Shown: positions 47,501-48,346 of the stretch, piece by piece
How the letters are laid out: every line of letters starts with the position of its first letter
How positions within the stretch are numbered: position 1 is the first letter of the stretch
Assembly (NCBI RefSeq): GCF_001190925.1
Contig: NZ_CP011072.1
Coordinates: forward strand, 930,001-994,000
Direction: 5' to 3'
Source of the DNA: Azoarcus sp. CIB
GTDB taxonomy: Bacteria; Pseudomonadota; Gammaproteobacteria; Burkholderiales; Rhodocyclaceae
DNA length: 64,000 nucleotides
The notes under the pieces: generated by a model
Database searches by the model: none
Told to the model about the DNA's origin: nothing
What the model saw: the letters and a program-made list of their open reading frames with translations, nothing else
Translations under genes and position numbers: made by a program

Positions 47501-48151
47501 ATGTCCCTCTTCCGCAACGCAAAATTCGAGATTTCCATTGCAAAATCGGGCGATCTGCCGGTTCCGGACGGGCCCGAGATCGCTTTTGCCGGCCGTTCGA
47601 ACGCCGGCAAGTCGAGTGCCATCAATACGATTGCCGACCATACGCGCCTCGCATATGTGTCGAAGACGCCCGGGCGCACGCAGCTGATCAACTTCTTCCG
47701 CCTCGATTGCGGGGCGGTGCTGGTCGACCTTCCCGGCTACGGCTACGCCAAGGTGCCCGAGGCGATCCGTCGGCAGTGGGTGGGCCTGCTGGAAAACTAC
47801 CTGCGTCAGCGCGAGAGCCTCGTCGGGCTCGTGCTGATCATGGATTCCCGCCATCCGCTGACGCCGCTGGATCGCCAGATGATCGACTGGTTCCTGCCGA
47901 GCGGGCGGCCGATTCACGTGCTGCTGACTAAGGCCGACAAGCTCACGCGCAACGAGGCGGCGGCCACGCTGGCCGCGGTGCGCCGCGAACTGGTCCCGCT
48001 GGGATCGCAGATCACGGCCCAGTTGTTCTCGAGCCTGAAGAAGGTCGGGGCGGAAGAGGTCGAGCACACCGTGGCGGGCTGGCTGAATCTGCCGACGGAA
48101 GAGTTGCCTGCGATTCCGGCCACGGCGCGTCTGGGTGGCGCCGGAAAATAA
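47501..48151 (+). CDS. engB: Ribosome-biogenesis GTP-binding protein EngB/YsxC
   Basis: 216 residues from ATG 47501; upstream frame extensions are artefacts, although the chosen start has only a pyrimidine-rich leader and no Shine-Dalgarno. GTPase motifs: G1 GRSNAGKSS, G2 region KTPGRTQLINFF, G3 DLPGYGYAKV, G4 LTKADKL. EngB is needed for assembly of the 50S ribosomal subunit. The TAA stop overlaps the U-tract of a minus-strand terminator that belongs to the candidate small RNA downstream. Confidence 0.95.
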   Translation: MSLFRNAKFEISIAKSGDLPVPDGPEIAFAGRSNAGKSSAINTIADHTRLAYVSKTPGRTQLINFFRLDCGAVLVDLPGYGYAKVPEAIRRQWVGLLENYLRQRESLVGLVLIMDSRHPLTPLDRQMIDWFLPSGRPIHVLLTKADKLTRNEAAATLAAVRRELVPLGSQITAQLFSSLKKVGAEEVEHTVAGWLNLPTEELPAIPATARLGGAGK

Positions 48152-48186
48152 AAGACCCCGGGCCAAAGGGGATAAAGCCCGGGGTC
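48145..48186 (-). terminator. Orphan minus-strand intrinsic terminator
   Basis: A ten-base GC-rich stem (48154-48163 with 48177-48186) is followed by TTTTATTTT only in the minus-strand direction. The plus-strand side continues CAAACGCC, without a U-tract, so it is not a good terminator for engB. Confidence 0.85.
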
Positions 48187-48297
48187 AAACGCCTTAATGG
48201 GATTAAGGCACCCGCTCAGGGAGGTGAAGCGGGGGACGGCTCGTCACCATCCGAAACTTCAGAGTAAATGCACTTTGAAGAAGTTCCCACCCGAATT
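48145..48297 (-). ncRNA. Candidate structured small RNA between engB and hemB
   Basis: Four successive hairpins are visible. The stems are 48280-48285/48255-48260; 48228-48233/48211-48216 with an 11-base loop; 48202-48209/48191-48198 with a 3-base loop; and 48177-48186/48154-48163. The last is followed on the minus strand by TTTTATTTT (48153-48145), an intrinsic terminator with no minus-strand gene to serve. Read from the minus strand, the second loop is TCACCTCCCTG, whose first eight bases equal the 3' tail of 16S rRNA (anti-Shine-Dalgarno); another loop contains TATCCCC. A -10-like TATAAG lies at 48309-48304 with a weak -35. Ends, strand and expression are predictions. Read from the plus strand the loops show GGGA, which could instead bind CsrA-type proteins. 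Confidence 0.6.
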
Positions 48298-48311
48298 CGT
48301 TACCTTATATT
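48284..48311 (+). promoter_or_regulatory. Possible hemB promoter
   Basis: TTCCCA (48284-48289) and TATATT (48306-48311) are spaced by 16 bases, about 36 bases before the hemB ATG. The AT-rich block also contains the minus-strand TATAAG proposed for the small RNA, so the two promoters may overlap. Confidence 0.45.
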
Positions 48312-48346
48312 TCATGTCGATTAACTGAACTGGAGCTGGATCGAAC

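Follow-up and report, generated by a model that had tools for sequence, protein, structure and literature searches.

A putative minus-strand small RNA of the anti-hemB family between engB and hemB of Azoarcus sp. CIB, with a conserved sigmaE-type promoter motif and a predicted anti-Shine-Dalgarno loop

The closest described RNAs come from Burkholderia, where one of them is given as 'Anti-hemB' among known homologues in the available part of its source (PMC3521395). The accessible passages on ncS04 of B. cenocepacia describe a 105-nt RNA that was detected on northern blots and whose 3′ end was determined via RACE and dRNA-seq (PMC5688073), and Hfq co-purifies ncS04 according to an excerpt of a second paper (PMC4603805). 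In the qPCR table for B. cenocepacia, none of the seven conditions altered the level of ncS04 significantly, which is not the behavior to be expected of an RNA strongly induced by stress (PMC5688073). A review, in the passage available, names hemB as a predicted target of Bc7 and Salmonella RybB as its homologue (PMC6321483); Bc7 is taken to be the anti-hemB/ncS04 RNA. A literature search for the accession RF02837 found no paper, and the available literature passages on the family did not describe a sigmaE promoter for anti-hemB.

Several other small RNAs are relevant for comparison, and they are described here as far as excerpts of their sources go. The expression of ErsA is strictly sigma22-dependent (PMC7565897), and its gene sits between PA5492 and PA5493 (PMC8545128). 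The RNA sX13 represses mRNAs via C-rich loops that act against G-rich motifs near start codons (PMC3771888). A putative Spot42 sRNA is placed at engB, in a context common to E. coli, Salmonella, and pseudomonads (PMC3349714). The CU-rich 'toxic small RNA' family RF02278 has been likened to NmsR, and its Burkholderia homologues are not in tandem (PMC5688073). No paper joining anti-hemB with ErsA or sX13 was found among open-licence PMC papers; the nearest one, in the passages available, sets sX13 beside Spot 42 and alpha-r7 as RNAs of the polA locus and leaves other bacteria as a question (PMC3771888).

The window analyzed here is a stretch of 64,000 nucleotides of the Azoarcus sp. CIB genome. 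A cmscan of the whole window against Rfam gave a single match above any cut-off, to RF02837 (anti-hemB), on the minus strand at 48148-48236, with 74.6 bits against a gathering cut-off of 49.5 and over the full model (1-81). The host genome contains one copy above the cut-off. The consensus secondary structure of RF02837 is kept at the locus, with compensatory changes, and our own models R1 and R2, both of which were built with the locus sequence included, match it too. The RNA in the window is a member of the known family RF02837, and the feature between engB and hemB is real and already catalogued. RF01719 (ErsA/Pseudomon-1) and RF02232 (sX13) had no match at E ≤ 1 in 48100-48400 and none in the host genome at E ≤ 0.001, RF02278 had no match at the locus, and ar7, ar14, and Listeria LhrC matched this stretch of the window far below their cut-offs. 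The features of the locus are as follows.

47501..48151, plus strand: engB (YihA/YsxC GTPase), the convergent neighbor
48145..48253, minus strand: small RNA gene of the RF02837 (anti-hemB) family, with the 5′ end placed from the promoter motif and the 3′ end from the terminator
48145..48155, minus strand: terminator T tract TCTTTTATTTT, which overlaps the engB stop codon of the opposite strand
48154..48186, minus strand: hairpin 4, which is the stem of the terminator and has another C-rich loop (UAUCCCC), from the predicted fold
48191..48209, minus strand: hairpin 3 (GCCTTAAT...ATTAAGGC), from the predicted fold and covariation
48211..48233, minus strand: hairpin 2, bearing the anti-Shine-Dalgarno loop, from the predicted fold and conservation
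48217..48227, minus strand: loop UCACCUCCCUG in hairpin 2, a putative pairing site for ribosome-binding sites
48234..48252, minus strand: hairpin 1 (GGATGG...CCGTCC), from the predicted fold and covariation
48259..48263, minus strand: -10 element TCTGA of sigmaE type, after a spacer of 17
48281..48287, minus strand: -35 element GGAACTT of sigmaE (RpoE) type, 7/7 to the consensus
48347..49363, plus strand: hemB, the divergent neighbor

On the minus strand the gap holds four compact hairpins and then the T tract TCTTTTATTTT, which follows the last stem on this strand only. An earlier note made from the letters of this DNA had pointed to both the four consecutive stems and the strand-specific T tract, and both are present. 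The minus-strand fold of 48140-48310 (-68.6 kcal/mol; z = -4.24) was matched in stability by none of 200 shuffled sequences; besides the four stems it shows an upstream hairpin, which falls within DNA read as promoter. The positions of the -35 element, the spacer, and the -10 element place the start of the RNA near 48253, and hence give a predicted length of ~109 nt from promoter motif to terminator, near the 105 nt of ncS04; the ~150 bases proposed in the earlier note were too long. The sequence CACCTCCCTG lies at 48226-48217 of the minus strand. The CCUCCC inside it has a predicted unpaired probability of 1.0, and the nucleotides that flank it are mostly paired (CA, 0.16 and 0.31; UG, 0.31 and 0.02). 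The UAUCCCC loop of hairpin 4 has a predicted unpaired probability of 0.85-1.0. The two loops picked out in the earlier note, one complementary to ribosome-binding sites and one C-rich (TATCCCC), are open in the predicted fold.

The covariation of the RNA structure is strong. For the test, 28 RNAs from the host's family were aligned with MAFFT alone (A2), and four helices were named on the alignment, in which 97.7% of cells pair; compensatory base changes were looked for in relatives and were found as two-sided change in 7 of 27 pairs (21 cells versus 5.8 in shuffles and at most 3 with slid partners). Model R1 was built from these 28 RNAs and 48 matches were realigned with it (A3). With distant relatives added in this way, 25 of the 27 pairs showed two-sided change (286 cells versus 82 shuffled and at most 38 slid), but the 48-sequence alignment is fitted to the model and leans towards the structure, so that the 28-RNA alignment is the fairer, smaller test. 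Hairpin 1 changed on both sides in 5/5 modelled pairs among the 48 relatives and in 0/5 within the host's family, and hairpin 3 did so in 8/8 and 4/8, respectively. Hairpin 2 is the most conserved part, with a mean column conservation in the host's family of 0.997 for the stem and 0.971 for the loop; the linker and the loops of the other hairpins have values between 0.59 and 0.77. CTCCCT was invariant in 41/41 aligned relatives (41 sequences were aligned out of 54 references). RNAalifold on the MAFFT alignment of the 41 sequences recovered only 11 pairs because hairpins 1 and 3 are misaligned across distant relatives.

The recurrent GGAACTT was first seen by reading the DNA upstream of relatives. 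The sigmaE consensus as scored is GGAACTT followed by TCNNA at a spacing of 14-18. One point was given for each position of GGAACTT and for the T, C, and A of TCNNA, giving 10 points in all, within 100 to 25 nt before CCTCCC. Sample 1 consisted of 61 loci; L002 and L003 (RF02278) were excluded and L033, L042, L049, L054, and L056 gave no core by regular expression, which left 56 cores from 54 loci. A score of at least 8/10 was reached in 50 of the 56 cores (shuffle mean 7.25, maximum 17) and a score of at least 9 in 42 (shuffle mean 0.74, maximum 3). Sample 2 was selected on RNA core and terminator alone and comprised at least 120 loci; four of these were dropped because they lay close to an end, and among the matches listed the remaining 116 loci gave the 117 cores that were scored. 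Among these, 100/117 cores scored at least 8 (shuffles 13.4, maximum 24) and 85/117 at least 9 (shuffles 1.3, maximum 5), but the events counted are not independent, since the cores are mutually related and some species may recur in both samples. As a control, the stretch 325-400 nt upstream was scored among the sample 2 matches listed and reached at least 8 in 3/110 and at least 9 in 0/110. The spacing of the motif is mostly 16, and its distance to the loop is nearly constant among relatives. The conserved promoter motif of the anti-hemB family appears, as a motif, to be of sigmaE type. Of the named promoters compared by eye, that of Aromatoleum toluvorans (L148) is the most similar to the one at the locus.

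The motif fell below the threshold in 6/56 cores of sample 1 and in 17/117 of sample 2 (among the matches listed). At least 5 of these 17, again among the matches listed, have a sigma70-like TTGAAA-17-TAAATT at the promoter place (L137, L176, L219, L223, and L242, which belong to Caenimonas, Ramlibacter, and one Burkholderiales bin). The same sequence is present in L135 and L146, yet these two scored sigmaE-positive, probably falsely. The mean sigma70 score differed little between the sigmaE-positive cores (6.3) and the remainder (6.9), among the matches listed. The members in Ramlibacter, Caenimonas, and the Burkholderiales bin may have exchanged a sigmaE promoter for a sigma70-like one. The host genome encodes RpoE (351.5 bits, cut-off 236.15). 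The best sigmaE-like site before the host rpoE, found by eye, is TGAACTA-N16-TCTTC; it scores 7/10, under the threshold, and was missed by the pattern, so it lends weak support.

Our preferred explanation, which we consider probable, is a small RNA gene on the minus strand whose product of ~109 nt stands on its own and acts in trans; it would be transcribed with sigmaE and would repress mRNAs via their ribosome-binding sites. This builds on membership of the RF02837 family, on a covarying structure, on the favored strand, on the conserved promoter motif, on the synteny, and on the presence of an RpoE gene in the genome. Envelope stress would free RpoE, RNA polymerase with sigmaE would transcribe the minus-strand RNA, and the RNA would accumulate. 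Its open CCUCCC loop would then pair with the G-rich ribosome-binding sites of a set of mRNAs, perhaps together with the C-rich terminator loop (UAUCCCC), and this pairing would lower the translation of those mRNAs, probably with the participation of Hfq. Such an RNA would give the sigmaE response a non-coding repressor arm, the part that ErsA plays under sigma22 in Pseudomonas aeruginosa. A search of four genomes for exact CAGGGAGGT-N3..11-ATG, a pattern far stricter than short seed pairing, gave 3-5 sites in each and no recognised shared gene. There were 16 such sites in all, compared to 0 to 3 per genome for a reversed-pattern control, and two of these sites are nothing but the small RNA gene itself, read on the complementary strand.

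We think it rather unlikely that a minus-strand RNA of this family acts mainly on protein, for example by Hfq titration, or is constitutive and not driven by sigmaE. The unchanged level of ncS04 across the tabulated conditions (PMC5688073) and the sigma70-like promoter in several comamonad-type members would fit such an RNA. Against it, the -35 element at the locus is the exact consensus, the motif stands at a nearly fixed distance in most relatives, and the most conserved loop is the anti-Shine-Dalgarno loop.

The Rfam RF02837 model found 64 of 81 genomes of the host's family and 21 of 369 genomes across the class above its cut-off. Our model R2 matched 161/369 genomes of the class at E ≤ 0.001, a figure that is a census and not an independent test since R2 was built partly from these 369 genomes. 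The anti-hemB-type family thus appears to be wide. In the host's family, EngB was convergent downstream in 29/30 loci and HemB divergent upstream in 29/30. Outside the host's family, EngB was found in 13/24 loci, some of which are cut by contig ends, and HemB within ~1.5 kb in 0/24. In the named sample of 117 cores, and among the matches listed, EngB was convergent in 89 and upstream on the same strand in 5; EngB was not seen in 23, of which 4 were at an edge; HemB was divergent in 84, and PolA was upstream on the same strand in 10. Beyond engB in the window, a gene recognized by eye as cytochrome c4-like from its two CxxCH motifs occupies a minus-strand frame within 46753-47691, and such a gene lies likewise beyond engB in two distant relatives (L047 2315-3010, L060 2349-3059), extending the conserved neighborhood around engB. 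At another locus, L049, a c-di-GMP-I riboswitch (RF01051, 77.9 bits; 2037-2121) was observed ~0.5 kb from the anti-hemB-type RNA.

The close, divergent hemB in nearly all loci of the host's family and in most of the named cores listed bears on the function that the Rfam name suggests, a cis-antisense regulator that would overlap a long hemB leader, pair with it, and so hold down the synthesis of haem. The hemB start lies at a median of 58 nt from the sigmaE -35 element in 25 anchorable loci of the host's family (two outliers are mis-anchored), and no consistent sigma70 site was seen between the two in those 25 loci. Because the gap is this short and lacks a consistent sigma70 site, hemB transcripts might start farther back, inside the small RNA gene. 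However, a scan gave a single sigma70-like site near the gap, on the plus strand at 48284-48311, and a hemB transcript from this site would begin near 48318, outside the small RNA; polA takes the upstream place in some of the named cores listed, and HemB was near none of the 24 loci outside the host's family, though 13 kept EngB. As members of the family also occur at loci in which no hemB was found, cis regulation of hemB is unlikely as a general function, and we regard it as improbable at this locus.

An A-C cell in the alignment is a G-U cell on the opposite strand, and G-U cells exceeded A-C cells at 34:5 in the host-family alignment and 42:11 in the 48 sequences, which favors the minus strand, the count being somewhat biased since the structure was drawn by hand on the 28-RNA alignment from minus-strand sequences. 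Terminator, promoter motif, and G-U asymmetry agree with the proposal in the earlier note of an independent minus-strand small RNA gene ending near 48145, and the covariation goes against the lack of compensatory changes by which the note would have been refuted. The note had also raised a CsrA/RsmA sponge with GGA loops as the reverse reading, and had named a plus-strand hemB leader as a refuting outcome. Although the complement strand does contain GGGGA, GGGA, and AGGGAGG in its loops and folds as well, if less exceptionally (48150-48346; z = -2.70, 1/200 shuffles), we consider either very improbable because the sponge needs a plus-strand RNA with its plus-only GGA loops, whereas it is the minus strand that the T tract and the conserved promoter motif fit and that the G-U counts favor, and because the family persists in loci where hemB was not found.

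The likeness to the NmsR/RcoF RNAs that had been drawn for the locus fits a different place in the genome. Three tandem copies of RF02278 were observed outside the window, on contig C1 at ~3308.5-3309.06 kb (L002 1001-1069, 1291-1358, and 1494-1564), and R1 did not match RF02278 when L002 was among the sequences searched. An NmsR/RcoF-type identity for the engB-hemB locus was rejected, since the NmsR-like RF02278 lies elsewhere and was not matched by R1.

Its place beside engB and weak sequence matches connect the gene with small RNAs that have been studied more closely in related bacteria. In E. coli the gene order is polA > spf > < yihA(engB). The family of genome G242, which has a CrcZ match above the cut-off, was taken as Pseudomonadaceae. 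In this family a sigmaE-like site scoring at least 8 was found in 18/29 engB loci within 520 nt beyond engB, a length that allows chance hits. An Rfam scan of six loci picked from those 18 found RF01719 (ErsA) above the cut-off and convergent with engB in 6/6; in G242 itself, ErsA adjoins polA, with no engB within 1.5 kb. When the ErsA model was run against 175 genomes, 8 matched at E ≤ 0.001, G242 above the cut-off and seven below. All seven sub-threshold matches, which are from outside the G242 family, adjoin a convergent EngB, and six of them also have PolA upstream. Five of the seven coincide with anti-hemB or R2 matches; the other two genomes (G114 and G169) have anti-hemB matches whose positions were not listed.

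The sX13 model matched ten genomes. Two of these matches are above the cut-off and have PolA upstream; of the eight sub-threshold ones, four adjoin EngB or PolA and the other four do not. Among the weak sX13 matches, L258 and L262 adjoin EngB, and L262 and L261 have a sigmaE-type motif (9/10) upstream; neither EngB nor PolA was seen near L261. These three may be further branches. In genome G251 (L272 1149-1911), four tandem copies of an anti-hemB-type RNA lie between polA and engB. All four match R2 at E ≤ 1.4e-9, G251 having been absent from the building of R2, and all four match anti-hemB below the cut-off. For one copy the sX13 score (48.3 bits, cut-off 50) exceeded the anti-hemB score (35.9); a different copy scored 37.1 bits with ErsA versus 41.8 with anti-hemB. 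At the coordinates of anti-hemB matches in other gammaproteobacterial loci, sX13 matched in L059 (E = 5.5e-4) and L061 (1.2e-3), and ErsA in L047 (0.055) and L036 (0.067). When R2 was restricted to 17 engB loci from the CrcZ-bearing family, it gave weak matches in 13 (best 2.7e-5, 6.2e-4, and 1e-3). In 30 whole genomes of that family it gave no match at E ≤ 0.001, which speaks against the link to ErsA; the best (0.0048) lay away from engB, and only G462 (E = 0.04) had one beside engB, among the matches listed. The sub-threshold Rfam matches are partly unspecific, as the G251 array also matches 6C RNA (E = 0.068), Streptomyces Scr3202 (0.24), alphaproteobacterial ar14 (1.2e-4) and ar7 (0.019), and Spot 42 (0.31), so the link to ErsA and sX13 rests on the whole-genome matches and on position. 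No sequence kinship is claimed with ar7, ar14, or Spot 42.

There is good evidence from these comparisons that anti-hemB and ErsA are related and fair evidence for a relationship of sX13 to anti-hemB; the tie of Spot 42 to the anti-hemB slot is positional only. It is about an even call whether anti-hemB, ErsA, and sX13 go back to one ancestral small RNA that was fixed in the polA/engB locus in Beta- and Gammaproteobacteria and was originally under sigmaE control, as the non-coding repressor arm of sigmaE. The betaproteobacterial branch would then have swapped polA for hemB, some comamonad-type members would have swapped the sigmaE promoter for a sigma70-like one, and Spot 42 may either descend from the same RNA, far diverged, or have replaced it. 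The data cover many families of the class and would tie ErsA and sX13, two regulators already studied, to an environmental family that is widespread. Beyond the catalogue entry, the analysis adds the sigmaE-type promoter motif, the apparently wide family, and the position convergent with engB, and an RNA family without established function gains a testable one, that of a sigmaE-controlled repressor of translation.

Compared to known systems, RF02278 shares with the locus RNA the CU-rich stretches complementary to ribosome-binding sites, but it has two hairpins and another sequence. Spot 42 (RF00021) occupies the same slot in the same orientation in E. coli, whereas it has no match to R2, and it has other targets and is Hfq-dependent according to the available passages (PMC3771888). 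Those passages show sX13 (RF02232) of Xanthomonadaceae to be similar in its C-rich loops on stable stems and in its repression of mRNAs with G-rich motifs near start codons (PMC3771888), and its gene lies downstream of polA. It differs in that its two loci above the cut-off are without a clear sigmaE motif (scores 7 and 6), and the RNA is described in the same passages as Hfq-independent (PMC3771888). The anti-hemB/ncS04 RNA is like the locus RNA in sequence, structure, anti-Shine-Dalgarno loop, length (105 versus ~109 nt), and a match above the cut-off; the difference is that the accessible descriptions concern Burkholderia, with no established function, and the locus RNA belongs to another genus. 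In ErsA, according to the part of the source available (PMC8575079), the first and second stems are separated by an unpaired, U-rich domain, where the locus RNA has hairpin 2, and the ErsA gene has polA as the upstream neighbor, where the locus has hemB in place of polA and keeps engB. ErsA is similar to the locus RNA in the convergence of its gene with engB (in the six loci scanned), its 5′ hairpin, its C-rich terminator loop, and its sigmaE/sigma22-type promoter, to which GGAACTT-N17-TCTGA corresponds at the locus as a motif.
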